From the NCBI GenBank assembly GCA_021732415.1, contig JAKFVC010000014.1, positions 1-49,047 on the forward strand: a stretch of 49,047 bases of DNA. Direction: 5' to 3'. This document shows, in pieces, positions 27,353 to 37,493 of the stretch. Numbering within the stretch: the stretch's first letter is position 1; each line of letters starts with the position of its first letter. Source of the DNA: Planctomycetaceae bacterium. GTDB lineage: Bacteria; Planctomycetota; Planctomycetia; Planctomycetales; Planctomycetaceae. Both the position numbers and the translations under genes were made by a program. The notes under the pieces are model-generated. The model made no database searches, was not told the DNA's origin, and saw only the letters and a list, made by a program, of their open reading frames with translations.

Positions 27353-27415
27353 TGCTGACGCTCCGGGGCTGAGTCGCGGTTTCTGCGACCACCTCAACCG
27401 CGGAGCGTAAAAATT

Positions 27416-27450
27416 GGGTCAGGACTTTTTGATTCAAAGAGTCCTGACCC
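27416..27450. repeat. Near-perfect palindrome GGGTCAGGACT...AGTCCTGACCC
   Basis: Arms 27416-27432 and 27434-27450 match at 16 of 17 positions around a single base. It lies 63 bp after the DUF1501 stop and is flanked by T/A runs on both sides, so it could terminate transcription in either direction. A diverged copy in the same orientation is at 32720-32768. It is probably a REP or insertion-sequence end; a spurious GTG start for the following gene lies here. Confidence 0.85.
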
Positions 27451-27614
27451 ATTTGTTTCCGTGGAGGCGATCTGGAACTACAAGAACAGCAATAACTAAG
27501 GTTAGCGTGCCATCGGTGCCGACCTCGTCGCAGCCGCCCGCGAGCACCTTGAGGAGAGGCCCGTACAGCAATAATCGCAGCCCCACATCGCATCCTTCTA
27601 TTTGGCGCATTCCA

Positions 27615-30600
27615 ATGATGAAACATCTGCCAACGGTCCAATCTCGGGCAGCCTGCCTGCTCGCAGGCTTCCTCATTCTGTCAGCGGCTTCGATTCGCAC
27701 GACGCACGCTGGTGATGCTGTAGCGCCTATGGAGAAGTCAGGCAATCCTTTCGTCGTCGCGTTGAATGCAGCCGACACGGCAGAAATGGAGTTTCGGGTT
27801 GGGGTGTCGGGGAAAATCGCGGTGCTGTTCAAGTTCGCGGATGGCAAGACTCAGACGCTCCTCGGGGCCGTGAAGGCGGATTCGCAGAAGCGCTTGGTGG
27901 AGAAAGACGGCAAAAAGACCTCTGAGTTGATGCCGATGGCGGATGGATCAATCGAGTTCACGGGCGGGGGCTTGAGATTTCAGTATCACAGTCGCCCGCG
28001 CATCTCCCGCTACACGGAGCCTCAGCAAGCGGACTTGGCGAAGGTGTGGGATACGCTGCCGGCGGCGTCGCAGTGTTGGGTGCCACTGGAGGTGCGGGCG
28101 GATGCTGCGGGAGCGGAGTTGTGGCTGGATGGGCGATACTGCGGACGAATCGCCAGTCAAAGCCGGCTCGTGGAGGTGAGCTTAGTGCTGGAAGCGGGCG
28201 GCGAGGTGCGTGGCGAGCGGTCATTCACGCGCGCCAACCCGGACATGTTCCTGCCGCTGGACGTGAGACGTATTGCCCGCCCGGGAGTAATGAAGACGGC
28301 GAGCGTGTCATTGAAGCCAGGGCTGCAGCAGGTCAACGCGGTGCCGATGGTGGTCGCGGACGGTGCGGGTAATGCGGATGTTGGCGAAGCGAAGTTGATG
28401 CAGGGTCTGCGTTCACTGGAGACCAATGAGAATACCTCGCGCACGTCGCTGGACGGCATGCGAGAGTCGCTGCACTTCTCGGTGCCGCAGGCGTTTTATC
28501 GGCGCGCGTGGGTGCTGTGTGCGGTGGAGGCGGATGCGACCAGGGACGCGGTGCTTACCACGCGGCTCACGCGTTTTGGCGTTTGGGGCCGCGGTGGTGC
28601 GATCGCGGATACTACGCTCACTTTACCGCGCGGCGATGAGAAACCGGGCAATGGCATCGAGCAAGTGGGCAGCGTGGAATACACCAACGCCGACCAGCAG
28701 AAGATCACGGCGCCACTCTATCTCGTGCGCGTCGATTTGAAGTTGGGCGACATCGTTGATCTGCTCGCCGAAACCAATGATCCGCATGCGGCGATGAAGA
28801 TCGGGCCGTATCTGGATTTTGAGTTCCTGGGAAAAATGGACGGCCTGAAGCTGCAGAATGATCGTCGCCGCATGCCGCTGGCGACCTCGACGAGCGCGGT
28901 GCATGTCTTCGGCGTGACCTTGGAGAAATCGCCCGTCGAGCTGCGGCTGAAGCAGTCGCACCCTGGCAACATCTTCCACAATGACGACGTGCCCGAGACG
29001 ACGATCAGCCTGCGAGCGGTGCAGCCGACGAAGTGCGTGCTGCAGTGGGAGATCAGCGATGTGAACGGCAACAAGTTGGCCACGCAAGAGCGGGCAGTCA
29101 CGCTGGATGCGATCGGCAGCGAATCGGACATCACCCTGTCGTTGGCCATGCCGCAAGTCGGCTGGTATGGCCTGCACATTACCGTAAATGACGACCGCGG
29201 CGCGCCACTGCTGAAGCATGAGGCCGCGTTTGCGGTACTGGGTAAGGATACACGGCAGGCGGGCTATGAATCACCCTTTGGCACGTGGTGGTTTAATGGA
29301 GTGCACTATACGACCCGCGATCCGGCCATCGCCGGGCCGATGCTGTACAAGGCGGGCATGCGACGCACGACGTTTAATTGGACCAAGGATTCCGAGGCCG
29401 AGCTCGCACCGTGGAAAGTCTCGCTCAACCAGATCAGGTGGCCCTTCCGGCTCGCGGATCTCAAAGACTGGCCTGCCGCTGAAGCACGCGCGGAGAAAGA
29501 GATCACCGAGTTGCTGCGGCGATTCCCGCATTGCCAGTATGTCGATCTGTTTCACGAGAGCTACCATCCCGGCGCCTATCCGCCCGAGCTGTACGGAGAC
29601 AGGTATGTCGCGGATGAAGCACAGGCGAAGCGAGACGATGACCTCTACGAGCTGGGCCTGCGCGGTGCGAAGTTCCTGCGTGCAAAGTTTCCGCAGCTCA
29701 AGATCATCGCGGGCAATTCAGGCGGATCGATCGGCATGATCGCCGTGATGCTGCGTCGTGGTTTCCCGCGTGAGTTGATCGATTACCTCGGCAGCGAGAC
29801 CACTGGTCAAAGCTTCGCGCCGGAAAAGCTCAGTCCGTGGACCAGCGGCGGCATCTGGCTGATGAGCGAGACTGCGCGCGTGTTCGGCTACGACATTCCG
29901 CTGGCCGGCTGCTTCGAGTTCACCTATCGTGCCGAGCGCGATCTTGGCCCACAACGGCACGCCGAGTGGTATGCGCGCGACATGATGATCGGCCTGGCGT
30001 ATCGCTTTCCCACAATTTCACCCGCCGTGATCGAAGATACGAACAATGCCTACTACGATGCGCTGTGGGGCGGCTGTGGGCTGTGTCAGCGCAGTCCCTT
30101 GCACTACCCCAAACCTGCTTATGTCGCGCTCGCCACGGTGACGAAAGTGCTCGACAGTGCGACTCTCGTGCGGCAGTGGGATACCGGGTCGTCGAGCGCC
30201 CATGTTCTGGAGTTCACACGCGGCAGCGAGCACATTTACGCGGTGTGGACACTACGCGGCGAGTGCGAGATGCAGGTGGAATTGCCCTCCGACGGAACGC
30301 TCACGCAGATCGAATTCTATGGCGTGCAGCGGCAGACGGCATCTCGTAACAAACGCCTCGCCATCACCGCCTCCACCGCGGTGAGCTACTTCACCAGTCC
30401 CGAGGCAGTGACCAGCATCACTGCGGGCACGCGTCGATTTCCGCAGCAGCAACCGCCGCTCGGCACGCAAATCGTTGCCAGCATGGACAACGTCGCCGAT
30501 TGGCAGCTTGTGGCTGATGACACCCCAGTGACCACCAGGCTGCGTCGTCCCGGCAAGTTTACGCTGCGCCAGCACAGCGATGCCGAACAGGGCGCATGCC

Positions 30601-31076
30601 TCGAAGTCACGCTGCAAAAGGCAGGAGAGCTACCTGCCGTCGTGGCCGAGTACACCGCGCTGAAATTGAAGCAACCGGCGCCCATCCCAGGGCGACCGCA
30701 CAGTATCGGCATGTGGGTCAAAGGCGATAGCAGTTGGGGGCGGATCATGTGGGAGATTGAAGACGCCCAGGGTGAACGTTTTCGCTCCTCCGGCGGCCTC
30801 GACGGCGGTGACTGGGGCAACTACAGTGCCCTCGACTTCGATGACTGGTGCTTCATGAGTTTCCCGCTCACCAACGATTCGCCGTTCGTCCACATCGAGC
30901 CCGGCCCCGGTTCCAAGCAATGGGAAAGCCAGGGCGATGGCCGGCTCGACTACCCACTGAAGCTCATCGGGATCTACGTCATCACGCATCGCCAATCCTT
31001 GAACCTCACCAGGATGATGCCGGTGACGCAGCCTCTGCGCTTCAAGAACATGAGTGTCATTGGAAGTGCCGAGTAA
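27615..31076 (+). CDS. Large secreted protein, possible glycosidase-like core
   Basis: A 1153-aa exported protein. The ATG-ATG at 27615 begins a leader ending S-I-R-T-T-H-A; the in-frame GTG at 27414 lies inside a palindromic repeat and is rejected. Residues about 30-550 are beta-rich (V-E-V-S-L-V-L-E, repeated sandwich-like strands). Residues about 560-900 look like an alpha/beta barrel, with V-D-L-F-H-E648-S-Y-H-P-G and Y-L-G-S-E728-T-T-G as candidate acid/base and nucleophile positions. The C-terminal ~200 residues (S-I-G-M-W-V-K-G-D-S-S-W-G-R) resemble a carbohydrate-binding jelly roll. I recognise no named family; the glycosidase reading is inference. Confidence 0.8.
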   Translation: MMKHLPTVQSRAACLLAGFLILSAASIRTTHAGDAVAPMEKSGNPFVVALNAADTAEMEFRVGVSGKIAVLFKFADGKTQTLLGAVKADSQKRLVEKDGKKTSELMPMADGSIEFTGGGLRFQYHSRPRISRYTEPQQADLAKVWDTLPAASQCWVPLEVRADAAGAELWLDGRYCGRIASQSRLVEVSLVLEAGGEVRGERSFTRANPDMFLPLDVRRIARPGVMKTASVSLKPGLQQVNAVPMVVADGAGNADVGEAKLMQGLRSLETNENTSRTSLDGMRESLHFSVPQAFYRRAWVLCAVEADATRDAVLTTRLTRFGVWGRGGAIADTTLTLPRGDEKPGNGIEQVGSVEYTNADQQKITAPLYLVRVDLKLGDIVDLLAETNDPHAAMKIGPYLDFEFLGKMDGLKLQNDRRRMPLATSTSAVHVFGVTLEKSPVELRLKQSHPGNIFHNDDVPETTISLRAVQPTKCVLQWEISDVNGNKLATQERAVTLDAIGSESDITLSLAMPQVGWYGLHITVNDDRGAPLLKHEAAFAVLGKDTRQAGYESPFGTWWFNGVHYTTRDPAIAGPMLYKAGMRRTTFNWTKDSEAELAPWKVSLNQIRWPFRLADLKDWPAAEARAEKEITELLRRFPHCQYVDLFHESYHPGAYPPELYGDRYVADEAQAKRDDDLYELGLRGAKFLRAKFPQLKIIAGNSGGSIGMIAVMLRRGFPRELIDYLGSETTGQSFAPEKLSPWTSGGIWLMSETARVFGYDIPLAGCFEFTYRAERDLGPQRHAEWYARDMMIGLAYRFPTISPAVIEDTNNAYYDALWGGCGLCQRSPLHYPKPAYVALATVTKVLDSATLVRQWDTGSSSAHVLEFTRGSEHIYAVWTLRGECEMQVELPSDGTLTQIEFYGVQRQTASRNKRLAITASTAVSYFTSPEAVTSITAGTRRFPQQQPPLGTQIVASMDNVADWQLVADDTPVTTRLRRPGKFTLRQHSDAEQGACLEVTLQKAGELPAVVAEYTALKLKQPAPIPGRPHSIGMWVKGDSSWGRIMWEIEDAQGERFRSSGGLDGGDWGNYSALDFDDWCFMSFPLTNDSPFVHIEPGPGSKQWESQGDGRLDYPLKLIGIYVITHRQSLNLTRMMPVTQPLRFKNMSVIGSAE

Positions 31077-33861: not shown

Positions 33862-35055
33862 TCAACGTTCGTTTGCCGAAGCCAAGCTGAGGCACACCAG
33901 CGAATTGGAACCTCGAACGTAGATCCGGTTTCCCACGATCGCGGGGTGAGAGTAGAGTCCGGCTTCGTCTTCCATGAGTTGCACGTCGGAGAGCTTCGAG
34001 AACTCGGCTGTGTCGGTGCGGAATAGCAGCAGGCGGCCTTTGAGAGTGGTGATCAGGACTCGCTGTGGGCTGCCGATCAGTGATGCGTACTCGCGAAACT
34101 GCCGGTCATTTTCTCGCCAAATTTGGGTGAGATTGCGGGTGGCATCCAGGCAGAACAGGTGATCGGAAACTCCGAAGACTCGTGAGCCCACGAGGATCGG
34201 CGAATGGCAATCGGGGACCAGGCGATCGTTGCGGGAAGTGGGAGTCGACTGGATGGTACCTTGTTTACTAACGTCATACATGCGCGTGCCATTGTTTTCG
34301 GTCGCTACGATGATCTTTTCGCCCCAGATGACAGGTGTGGGGACATTGAAGTCGCCGGGGCGGTCTGGCGTGAGCGTCCACAAACGCTGTCCGGAGGCGG
34401 CATCCCACGCGCCCAGCGAGTCGACATCATAGCCCACTAGTTGCTGCTTTCCACCGAGGTTGGCAACGATGAAAGAACCGTGCCCCGGAGCACGGCCCGG
34501 TGATTTCCACAGCACGTCGCCCGTGGAAGGTTCGAGAGCCACGAGGGACGTTTCGGCCCCGCCAGGATTGATGATCAGGCGGCCGTCTGCGATTAACGGC
34601 GAGGAGCAGAAACCCCACGACAGGTTGACCGGCCCTCCGAAATCCTTTTGAAAGTGCTTCTTCCAGCGAGTCTTTCCAGTGGCCAGGTCGACGGCGTGTA
34701 GATGCCCTTGAGCTCCCTGCAGGAAGACCAGCTCGCCATGTATTTGCGGGGTGGCGCGAGGCGAGTTTCCATAATCGAGTTTGCCGGGTGCCGAGTAGCG
34801 CAGGGTCCAGCGTTCGGTGCCGTCGGCGTTGTAACAGCGGAAGATGTCGACTCGATCGGCCGGATCGCGGTCGGCCACGATAACGAGTTCCCGCGTGGCG
34901 GCCACGCCCGCCAGCGCCGGGCTCGACAGGCGTTTCGACCACAGAATTGCATCTTTGCCCGGCAGGAATTCGGGCAGCCAATTGACCAGACCGTCGCGAT
35001 TCAAACCCCGCCAGCCGGGCCAGTCGCCGTTGTCAGCGCTGGTGGGGGCTGCTAC
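33862..35055 (-). CDS. PQQ-like beta-propeller, probably expressed by -1 frameshift from the PhnD-like gene
   Basis: The open frame runs from the slippery site at 35055 to 33862 (397 codons). It opens V-A-A-P-T-S-A-D-N-G-D-W-P-G-W-R-G-L-N-R-D-G, the family's N-terminal motif (compare N-W-P-H-W-R-G in the protein at 8900-10144). Propeller blades follow, such as A-V-D-L-A-T-G-K-T-R-W, L-E-P-S-T-G-D-V-L-W and W-D-A-A-S-G-Q-R-L-W. The first start codon in this frame is a TTG at 35004, after the W-P-G-W-R-G motif and without a signal peptide. The stop closing the frame upstream is TGA at 35089-35091, so no earlier start exists. Translation as a fusion to the preceding protein (about 688 aa in total) is the simplest explanation. 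Confidence 0.85.
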   Translation of the reverse strand, partial: VAAPTSADNGDWPGWRGLNRDGLVNWLPEFLPGKDAILWSKRLSSPALAGVAATRELVIVADRDPADRVDIFRCYNADGTERWTLRYSAPGKLDYGNSPRATPQIHGELVFLQGAQGHLHAVDLATGKTRWKKHFQKDFGGPVNLSWGFCSSPLIADGRLIINPGGAETSLVALEPSTGDVLWKSPGRAPGHGSFIVANLGGKQQLVGYDVDSLGAWDAASGQRLWTLTPDRPGDFNVPTPVIWGEKIIVATENNGTRMYDVSKQGTIQSTPTSRNDRLVPDCHSPILVGSRVFGVSDHLFCLDATRNLTQIWRENDRQFREYASLIGSPQRVLITTLKGRLLLFRTDTAEFSKLSDVQLMEDEAGLYSHPAIVGNRIYVRGSNSLVCLSLASANER

Positions 35056-35061
35056 TTTTTT
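35006..35061 (-). promoter_or_regulatory. Candidate -1 ribosomal frameshift signal
   Basis: In the mRNA the heptamer A AAA AAG (35061-35055) is in phase with the PhnD-like frame and is followed immediately by the stop UAG (35054-35052). After a 7-nt spacer, CCCCACCAGC (35047-35038) pairs with GCUGGCGGGG (35015-35006), 9 of 10 positions, around a 22-nt loop. Heptamer, short spacer and GC-rich stem are the classic parts of a dnaX-type -1 frameshift site. The nine-A run would also permit transcriptional slippage. Confidence 0.7.
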
Positions 35062-35927
35062 TTTGCCACTTCGTTTTCGGTCTCGGCGTCAGCGACAAAC
35101 CCGCGTTTCGTTTCGAGTGCGATGCGGAGATTGACATCAGCGGTCGATTTCAGCAACGCGTCGCTGATCGCCGATTGCAACTTCGAATCCAGGCCGGCGT
35201 TCAGATAGGCGGCCACAAACGGGACATCTTCCGTCTCGCCGACGATGCGCAGGGCTCCCTTCTTCACCTGTCCGCAACCTTCCAGCAACGGCTTGGCATA
35301 GCTGGAAATCACCGCACAGCCACGTTCCCCCTTCTCCGCCATTTCCAGGATCTTGATCGCCCCTTCATCGCAGGCGACGGCGGTGTCCAACTTCTGGGGG
35401 ATCGCGATTCCGGCGGCCGTAAGCAGTCGCATTGCAGCGGCGTGTTTCTCGTCGCACTCCTGTGGGCCGAAGTAGATGCGGTAATCCTTCAGGTCAGACA
35501 TTTGTTTGGCGGGATCGGCCGTGGCGACAACCACCAGGCCCCGCTGCGTCGTGAGACCGTCCTTGCCGGACAGCATGGCCACCTTCTTGAGGTTCAGTTT
35601 CGAGGCCTTCGCATCTTGCAGAATGACCGATTGTTTGCCGATCACCAAGTCGATGCGAATGACCTGCTTCTTCTTCTGAGCTGCGACCAGCGAATCGTTG
35701 AAGACCACAACGACCTCGCGCTGTAGCGTTTTCTGTAGCGCCTCGGCGAGTTTCTCATAATCGCGTTGGGCATAGCCGGCCACACACGGACACGACAACG
35801 GTTTCGCCAGAGGGTCCATCACCACGAGCGTCAAGGGCTCGGGGGCCAGGGATTTCTCCTCGCTCGCCACCACGGAGACGAGCGACAGGAGAATGGCGCA
35901 CACGAAGACTCTTCGAGCGTATCGCAT
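35052..35927 (-). CDS. PhnD/SsuA-like periplasmic substrate-binding protein, Cys-rich
   Basis: A 291-aa protein with a signal peptide (M-R-Y-A-R-R-V-F-V-C-A-I-L-L...V-V-A-S). It has the type-2 periplasmic-binding pattern of PhnD-like proteins: Y-E-K-L-A-E-A-L-Q-K, L-S-D-L-K-D-Y-R-I-Y-F-G-P-Q and F-V-A-A-Y-L-N-A. An unusual C46-P-C48 pair follows the first strand, with further Cys at 158, 186, 204 and 218. No ABC permease or ATPase is nearby, so import is not supported; a sensing or redox role is possible. It ends K-K-K-stop on a run of nine A, where the PQQ frame takes over. The ATG at 35927 begins the leader; only a weak ribosome site is visible. Confidence 0.83.
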   Translation of the reverse strand: MRYARRVFVCAILLSLVSVVASEEKSLAPEPLTLVVMDPLAKPLSCPCVAGYAQRDYEKLAEALQKTLQREVVVVFNDSLVAAQKKKQVIRIDLVIGKQSVILQDAKASKLNLKKVAMLSGKDGLTTQRGLVVVATADPAKQMSDLKDYRIYFGPQECDEKHAAAMRLLTAAGIAIPQKLDTAVACDEGAIKILEMAEKGERGCAVISSYAKPLLEGCGQVKKGALRIVGETEDVPFVAAYLNAGLDSKLQSAISDALLKSTADVNLRIALETKRGFVADAETENEVAKKK

Positions 35928-35979: not shown

Positions 35980-37404
35980 TTACTTGCTGGCCTGTTCCTC
36001 ACCGCGCGACAGGACAATGATCTTCGATTTTTCGATGTCGATGTAATAGAGGCGGCTTTCATCGGCATTGACGGCGACGCATGAGTTCTTGCAGCCTGCC
36101 TGAACCTTGGCGACACCGACGAGCCCCAGGTATTTGCCATCGGGCGTAAAGTGCTTGACGACACCGTTACTTTCCGAGACGAAGAGATTCCCGTCCTTGT
36201 TGAAGCACAGATTCATGGGGTTGCAGCAGCCACTAAAGTTCTCGCCCTCGCCCTCGCGATCGCGTTTGCCGAACTGTCCGAGTTCTTTCCCATCGAGATC
36301 GAAGCGAACGACTCGGTGCCGCGAGTTCTCGCAGACGTACAGTTCGCCATTCCGGCATTGCACATCCATTTGACCGCAGCATCCTGACAGGCTTTTGACA
36401 ATCTCTTTCGCGTTGTCGAATTTGTTGTCGGTACGCCAGATACCATAGCCATAACCAGACATCGCATGGCAGGTCACGAACACGTTGTCCTGACTGGCAC
36501 TGATCGCGTGGATTGTTCGGGCCCGGCCGACCACTTGCTGCAGCGCCTGTTCGATCGTCTTCTTCTCCATTTGCTTCGCTTGCTGCTTGAGCTGCGTGAT
36601 GATCTGCTTCAAATTCCGCTCTTCGAACTGAGTAGATTGAACCGAATCTTCTTCTTCATCCTCTGTGCTGGATTCGGCATCCTGTTTGTCTTTCTGCTCT
36701 TTGCTTGCGCCGTCCTTTTTCGCGGCGGCCTTCTTCTTCTCGGCGTTTTCCTTATTGGCTTGCAGTTCTTTGAGTTGATCTTCGTACTCTTTGACCTGGT
36801 CCGCGAACATCGCGCGGTCGGTTTCCAACTGCTCCTTGGCCCGTTCGCGCATGTCGTCCGCATGCTCTTTGATGTAAGTCATCTGTGGCGATTCGGTCTC
36901 CAACAGCTTCTTTCCCGCGAGATCGAAGCGTGCCACGCGACCACTGCCCCCGACGAGTACGGTCCCATCGGGAGCCGTATTGATGGCCTCTCCCGGGAAC
37001 CCGATGGCCCACGTGGCGACCAGCTTGCCGGCCGCGTCGTAGACGTACACGGCGGGCTCAAACTTTGGTGCCTTCTTCTTCTTGCTACCATTCAACAGAC
37101 GCACGGCCAAGCCGCCGAGAGACGAATCGCCGTCGAAGTCGTTGGGACCAGCGGCGCCGACCAACGCCAGAATGCGACCTTCACTGTCGCTGCAGAAGTC
37201 CTCAAGCTTCTGGCCTTCTTCCGTCTTGGCGACCTTCAGTTCCAGCAACTGTTTATACAAGGCCGGCTCATTCTTAGTCGATTTTGTGACGGCCTCATCG
37301 GCTCGGGCTGCAGTCCACAATGTCAGCAAAATCGAACTGGCCGCCAAAACGACACCGACGCCACCAGCGCGAAGCATGCGCGAGCTGCGAGAAATTTCTG
37401 GCAT
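35980..37404 (-). CDS. Secreted NHL-like beta-propeller with a coiled-coil insert and Cys pairs
   Basis: A 474-aa exported protein (leader about residues 8-35, ending T-A-A-R-A). Residues 40-170 form N-terminal propeller blades. Residues 175-292 are a long charged coiled coil rich in Glu/Lys with an acidic S-T-E-D-E-E-E-D segment. Residues 295-470 return to the propeller. Three blade starts carry unusual Cys clusters: G-C342-C343-G-Q-M-D, G-C393-C394-N-P-M-N and G-C438-K-N-S-C442. Two more Cys lie at 350 and 400. These could bind metal or form disulphides; this is inference. AGGAG 7 nt before the ATG at 37404 decides the start. It is 52 bp upstream of the PhnD-like gene, so probably the first gene of that operon. 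Confidence 0.82.
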   Translation of the reverse strand: MPEISRSSRMLRAGGVGVVLAASSILLTLWTAARADEAVTKSTKNEPALYKQLLELKVAKTEEGQKLEDFCSDSEGRILALVGAAGPNDFDGDSSLGGLAVRLLNGSKKKKAPKFEPAVYVYDAAGKLVATWAIGFPGEAINTAPDGTVLVGGSGRVARFDLAGKKLLETESPQMTYIKEHADDMRERAKEQLETDRAMFADQVKEYEDQLKELQANKENAEKKKAAAKKDGASKEQKDKQDAESSTEDEEEDSVQSTQFEERNLKQIITQLKQQAKQMEKKTIEQALQQVVGRARTIHAISASQDNVFVTCHAMSGYGYGIWRTDNKFDNAKEIVKSLSGCCGQMDVQCRNGELYVCENSRHRVVRFDLDGKELGQFGKRDREGEGENFSGCCNPMNLCFNKDGNLFVSESNGVVKHFTPDGKYLGLVGVAKVQAGCKNSCVAVNADESRLYYIDIEKSKIIVLSRGEEQASK

Positions 37405-37493
37405 GGAAAGGCTCCTGAGAGAGAGGACTCCGCCGACAGCAGATCTGAACAACCATCAGGATATGAGGCCGGAAGCATCACGTCAACTTTTTC

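Follow-up and report, generated by a model that had tools for sequence, protein, structure and literature searches.

Evidence for conserved, probably transcriptional frameshifting at the junction of a PhnD-like protein and a beta-propeller in planctomycetes

Structure of the locus

We analysed a stretch of 49,047 nucleotides from a Planctomycetaceae bacterium (contig JAKFVC010000014.1), which we call the window. On its minus strand, a PhnD-like ORF runs into a propeller ORF that lies in the -1 frame. The features are as follows.

35052..35927, minus strand: PhnD-like (Phosphonate-bd) ORF with a Pfam match, ATG at 35927, 291 aa; the predicted short product
35056..35064, minus strand: A9 tract, the candidate slippage site, at the domain junction; A8-A10 in 59 of 59 split homologues
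35052..35054, minus strand: TAG, the stop of the zero frame, adjoining the tract codon; all 59 split homologues have a zero-frame stop within four codons
35033..35035, minus strand: third-frame (+1/-2) stop TGA, 7 codons past the tract (row L002 of our locus set)
33862..35061, minus strand: PQQ/BamB-like beta-propeller, 397 codons past KKK in the -1 frame, with no start codon of its own before the W motif
35980..37452, minus strand: gene for an NHL-like protein, a probable operon partner, 52 nt upstream of the PhnD-like ORF

The initial annotation had described an A AAA AAG heptamer in phase within a run of nine A's at the end of the PhnD-like ORF, with a stop following at once, and a propeller of 397 codons in the -1 frame that lacks a usable start codon before a TTG at 35004. 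The window sequence bears out both descriptions. The end of the PhnD-like ORF reads GCA AAA AAA AAG TAG on the minus strand. After a stop at 35091-35089, the -1 frame stays open from 35088 until a stop whose last base is 33862, and its first ATG, GTG or TTG is the TTG at 35004, beyond the W motif (here W-P-G-W-R-G). A product that passes the junction by slippage is predicted to have 688 aa (291 + 397).

The PhnD-like part scores 55.7 bits with Pfam PF12974 (Phosphonate-bd; cut-off 27) and the propeller 86.5 bits with PF13360 (PQQ_2/BamB-like; cut-off 27.6), while the NHL-like gene stays just below the cut-off of 20 for PF01436, with 19.7 bits. Judged by eye, the N-terminus of the PhnD-like ORF resembles a signal peptide; the propeller of the window has no leader of its own.

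The A9 tract is the sole run of eight or more A's or T's within the window, and the pattern A8-G-TAR occurs once in the 9.87-Mb genome, namely at this junction. Note that the reversed control pattern also occurs once in the 9.87 Mb, so that the rarity alone shows nothing; what lifts the A9 tract above chance is its conservation at the junction in all 59 split homologues. In total, the genome has about 69 tracts of at least eight A's (87 overlapping 8-mers, merged by hand).

Conservation of the junction

A search with the PhnD-like protein found it in 11 of 59 relatives, in 82 of the 397 genomes from the class (with a threshold of E 1e-30) and in 17 of 392 genomes of the phylum; these sets share members, and the genome of the window is part of each count. 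Further matches are 15 loci on named contigs, including Verrucomicrobia. We fetched 104 loci, of which 96 were left after 8 duplicates had been dropped; two partial matches from the class (G255:C725 and G263:C52) lie outside this set. Both the PhnD-like part and the propeller are present in 92 of the 96 distinct loci. In 59 of these the gene is split at an A8-A10 tract and in 32 it is a single ORF fused in frame, which supplies the comparison of fused, split and single homologues that the initial annotation had proposed. In the one remaining locus (L062) the two halves share a frame and are parted by a TAG, and there is no start codon in the 200 nt before the propeller motif. We saw no propeller in 4 of the 96 loci, namely L028 (a partial match), L084 (where the contig ends 361 nt past the match), L091 and L102. 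In the last two, the PhnD-like genes stand alone, which shows that the short unit can exist by itself.

Of the 59 split loci, 42 carry A9, 16 carry A8 and one carries A10, and none has fewer than eight A's. The tract is followed by G in 55 loci and by C in 4. A stop in the zero frame (TAG 27, TAA 22, TGA 10) adjoins the tract codon in 46 loci and comes within four codons in all 59. The propeller is reached by a -1 change in 58 of the 59 loci, the exception being L005, which has A10 and needs +1. Since AAG is commoner than AAA among the lysine codons in the bodies of the split genes (917 and 490, respectively), the sequence AAA AAA AAG cannot be put down to codon habit. By group code, the split loci come from 29 genera and 5 families. 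These loci are related by descent, and the counts are therefore not independent trials.

Both halves of the gene are under purifying selection: dN/dS lies between 0.05 and 0.23 in both in 8 of 10 pairs, the other 2 pairs being saturated. On the grounds of these values we rejected the idea that the locus is a pseudogene.

The propeller could simply be a separate gene with its own start codon. In 15 of the 58 split loci that could be evaluated, the 150 nt that precede the W motif do contain an ATG, GTG or TTG in the propeller frame; against this, 43 of the 58 have no such start, the propeller of the window lacks a leader, and in 32 loci the halves are fused in frame. We regard two separate genes as extremely improbable.

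A miscounted homopolymer, with a true run of ten A's and one continuous ORF, had been named in the initial annotation as a further possibility. Homopolymers are indeed prone to error, and some Gimesia loci carry A10 in frame. Such an error would, however, have to be made in the same way in 58 of 59 split loci, ten of which (L006, L008, L029, L039, L041, L053, L059, L089, L090 and L095) come from genomes of one to three contigs. This makes a miscount very unlikely.

On a quickly built tree of 89 loci (which leaves out L012, L019 and L079), 7 changes are required to explain the split state, and well supported branches force at least 4 of them. In the Gimesia group, split members with A9 stand beside in-frame members with A10 or, in L054, A8, and it seems that a small change in length converts one state into the other. 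Phase variation, in which slippage during replication toggles the fusion on and off, would fit an A tract at a domain junction and this mixture of A9 split and A10 in-frame members. On the other hand, 58 of the 59 split loci fall into the -1 class, and the A8 loci keep AAA AAA AAG or AAC, differing from the A9 loci by the preceding base and not by length; phase variation seems to us highly doubtful. A fused gene with an in-frame A9 tract was also seen (L093), in which the other two frames reach a stop 3 and 7 codons after the tract begins.

Ribosomal or transcriptional slippage

The initial annotation had suggested a programmed -1 shift that yields a short PhnD-like form and a fusion of about 688 aa. 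The homologues support such a shift, as judged from their sequences. As for the mechanism, it had favoured a ribosomal shift of the dnaX type with a spacer and a stem. In programmed ribosomal frameshifting of the dnaX/IS type, tRNA-Lys would re-pair one base back at A_AAA_AAG on a faithful mRNA. The tract ends with an in-phase AAG or AAC in 55 of the 59 split loci (L006, L032, L012 and L100 hold A_AAA_AAA), and G is the next base in 55 of 59. This would suit a ribosomal shift as well and counts against slippage of the polymerase. A_AAA_AAG is reported to be among the strongest motifs in E. coli when stimulators are present, and 61% of heptamers are reported to shift to some extent without them (PMC4066793). 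An in-phase slippery heptamer is contained in every A8-A9 tract, so the phase of the tract cannot separate the two mechanisms.

We therefore turn to features that might. A polymerase that slips yields transcripts of mixed lengths, so that early stops are expected in both other frames, whereas a -1 shift on the ribosome does not require the third frame to stop early. This was analysed in 57 split loci, the same set as in the tests of folding and of Shine-Dalgarno (SD) duplexes below, which omits L005 (A10, +1) and L079 (a second frame break in the propeller). In 47 of the 57, a third-frame stop comes within 10 codons; the median distance is 4 codons, compared to 34 at control positions in the same genes. 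Synonymous reshuffles that keep the amino acids of the propeller (n = 200) gave 17.0 +/- 2.8 of 57, with a maximum of 26. The early stops are seen both in A8 loci (12 of 16, with 3.4 after reshuffling) and in A9 loci (35 of 41, with 13.9). If only one locus per genus is counted, 22 of 29 stop within 10 codons (9.2 +/- 2.3 in 500 reshuffles, maximum 16) and 15 of 29 within 5 codons (5.8, maximum 12); within 3 codons the difference is weak (9 of 29, with 4.4 and a maximum of 9 in the reshuffles). For fused loci, counting from 33 nt before the W motif, a third-frame stop within 10 codons is found in 7 of 32. Third-frame stops are thus over-represented, as in Thermus dnaX, which favours slippage of the RNA polymerase over that of the ribosome. 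Early stops in both other frames also speak against the assembly error discussed above.

The length of the tract points in the same direction: at least eight A's are always kept, where A_AAA_AAG needs only six. Transcriptional slippage has been described for A_n with n > 7 (PMC3711429), and many genomes are reported to show selection against slippage at a length of nine (PMC1088944). It has to be said that the 16 loci with only A8 are at the low end for a polymerase, which counts against polymerase slippage. Four loci have A_AAA_AAC, which is reported as weak in E. coli (PMC4066793) and so speaks against the ribosome.

Among possible stimulators of ribosomal shifting, SD-like motifs are not above background (9 of 59 split loci, 392 of 2301 control positions). 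A scan for SD duplexes showed only a small rise 30-10 nt upstream (strong in 9 and 8 of 57 loci), which was equalled 48-68 nt downstream (9 of 57 and 8 of 56). The pairs of the 9/10 stem proposed in the initial annotation (35047-35038 with 35015-35006) are present in the window sequence, but the folding of this region (35062-34990) is not above chance (z = -0.57, which 52 of 200 shuffles equal or surpass in folding). Over the family as a whole, folding of the RNA immediately 3' of the tract is stronger than at other positions, with a mean z of -0.82 to -1.00 versus -0.33 to 0.02, and with z below -1.5 in 15-16 of 56 loci versus 4-7 elsewhere; this supports the ribosome and counts against the polymerase.

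The genome of the window encodes both tRNA-Lys(UUU) and tRNA-Lys(CUU), and the presence of the latter is a point against a ribosomal shift; two Lys tRNAs may explain why slippage at Thermus dnaX is transcriptional (PMC5009743). Besides scattered single tRNA genes, this genome has dense tRNA arrays with 39 genes (L136, G000:C11), 39 (L137, G000:C46), 14 (L138, C163) and 12 (L139, C12), the first two being similar in order.

Taken together, the SD-like motifs and the window stem at background, the second tRNA-Lys, the surplus of A's and the third-frame stops weigh against the dnaX-type ribosomal mechanism, which we consider possible but rather unlikely.

Other A tracts and a second family

Apart from the junction, the genome has 68 A8+ tracts, which we screened with a crude codon score that had been trained on ORFs of the window. 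This gave 4 more frame changes, along with 3 in-frame tracts, 17 at an edge and 44 others. Two of the frame changes are in transposase genes, at A8 (-1) in L198 (DDE_3) and at A9 (+1) in L202 (rve), which we take to be IS630 and IS3 transposases. The third (L156, G000:C2:48944-51944) encodes ThuA, LamG and then DUF6797. It is split by -1 at A9 in the genus of the window (L254, L255 and L257). Among 22 comparable loci, 18 stay in frame and have no tract, and one more shows a -1 change, also with no tract.

The fourth (L217, G000:C244:8270-11270; loci L224-L253 and L284-L303) is a pair of halves of about 500 aa each, with no Pfam match and no BLAST similarity to the PhnD-propeller family. Of 50 homologous loci that we fetched, 35 hold both halves and in 15 the second half was not detected. 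The gene is split in 31 of the 35, always with a tract (A9 in 28, A10 in 2 and A8 in one), by -1 in 30 and by +1 in L244; the remaining 4 are fused and have no tract, a pattern that is also found in the PhnD-propeller family. For the first 26 split loci, the tract is followed by C in 20, G in 4 and T in 2, and three phases of the tract occur (21, 3 and 2 loci). In all 26, the zero frame stops within 10 codons (reshuffles: 8.7, maximum 14), and in 21 so does the third (10.0 +/- 2.2, maximum 17); 20 have no start codon nearby. The tract is kept more strictly than its phase or the base that follows, and this too speaks for the polymerase.

Gene neighbourhood and possible function

A similar NHL-like protein is encoded upstream in 55 of the 60 loci with at least 700 nt of upstream sequence (duplicates included). 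Neither an ABC permease nor an ABC ATPase is among the annotated ORFs next to the gene in the window. The congener L014 does have an ABC ATPase downstream, together with a GntR-type regulator, so that a role in transport is possible. Elsewhere in the window, a 1220-codon ORF on the plus strand (27414-31073) has no Pfam match at E 0.001.

As in PhnD/PtxB-type binding proteins and BamB, the PF12974 and PF13360 scores are above their cut-offs. The difference is that the scores for TIGR01098 (phosphonate/phosphite ABC binding protein; 19.1, cut-off 112.05) and TIGR03300 (BamB; 77, cut-off 285.2) are below theirs, the propeller reaching only the broader PF13360, and that the propeller is fused to a binding protein. 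Matches in the PDB are weak for phosphonate/phosphite binding proteins (best E 0.059) and better for BamB (1.1e-07). Two natural fusions (L022 and L026) have, by eye, a lipobox-like start.

We propose that the PhnD-like domain may bind a ligand outside the cytoplasm, and that the propeller would serve as an optional docking or sensing module that works with the upstream NHL-like protein.

Discussion

The junction between the PhnD-like part and the propeller looks like a case of conserved programmed frameshifting, the mechanism of which is probably transcriptional. We think it likely, from comparative evidence, that the two ORFs form one gene with two products, made by slippage of RNA polymerase on the A9 tract. 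The polymerase would add one A in a part of the transcripts (A9 to A10) and so bring the propeller into frame. The faithful mRNA would then give the exported PhnD-like protein of 291 aa and the slipped mRNA the PhnD-propeller fusion of 688 aa, while translation of transcripts with other numbers of A's would end at the nearby stops. We infer that the slippage occurs in the cell, and in transcription and not on the ribosome; the ratio of the products and the usefulness of the short form are inferred likewise. As 32 loci are fused, the short form is not needed everywhere.

The closest parallel is dnaX of Thermus thermophilus, for which transcriptional slippage is described (PMC1088944, PMC5009743). 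It shares with the PhnD-propeller gene an A9 tract on the sense strand, two products with a common N-terminus, close stops in both other frames and two tRNA-Lys species. In Thermus, however, the faithful mRNA gives the long product, whereas here it would give the short one; the fused locus L093 has the Thermus orientation. In tssM of Citrobacter rodentium (PMC4256274) and mxiE of Shigella flexneri (PMC1088944), extra bases in the transcript are likewise reported to yield a longer protein from a split gene. Both forms of tssM are reported as needed, and slippage there is reported in two species (PMC4256274). These two genes differ from ours in their tracts (A11 in tssM and a run of U in mxiE, compared to A8-A10) and both are related to secretion. 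The E. coli dnaX gene, with its -1 ribosomal frameshift, has the same A_AAA_AAG in phase, but the PhnD-propeller gene has a longer tract, no enrichment of SD-like motifs and no significant stem in the window, and here it is the longer product that would be the shifted one (PMC3711429).

In the titles and abstract openings of papers listed by searches of the open PMC library, we found nothing on the PhnD-propeller gene or on slippage in cellular genes of planctomycetes. One survey includes two planctomycetes, and its main text has neither PQQ nor phosphonate (PMC3711429).

Cellular genes that depend on slippage are few in the papers compared here, namely dnaX, mxiE and tssM. On balance, it appears fairly probable that planctomycetes routinely rely on slippage of RNA polymerase at A8-A10 tracts as a conserved means of producing ordinary, non-mobile proteins in two lengths. 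This would hold for at least two families with no detectable mutual similarity, each conserved in many genera and each with a coding sequence shaped to stop both unwanted frames early. If this is true, two conserved families in one group would offer a comparative system for studying selection on slippage ratios, and some planctomycete gene pairs and apparent frameshifted pseudogenes would in fact be single genes with two products.
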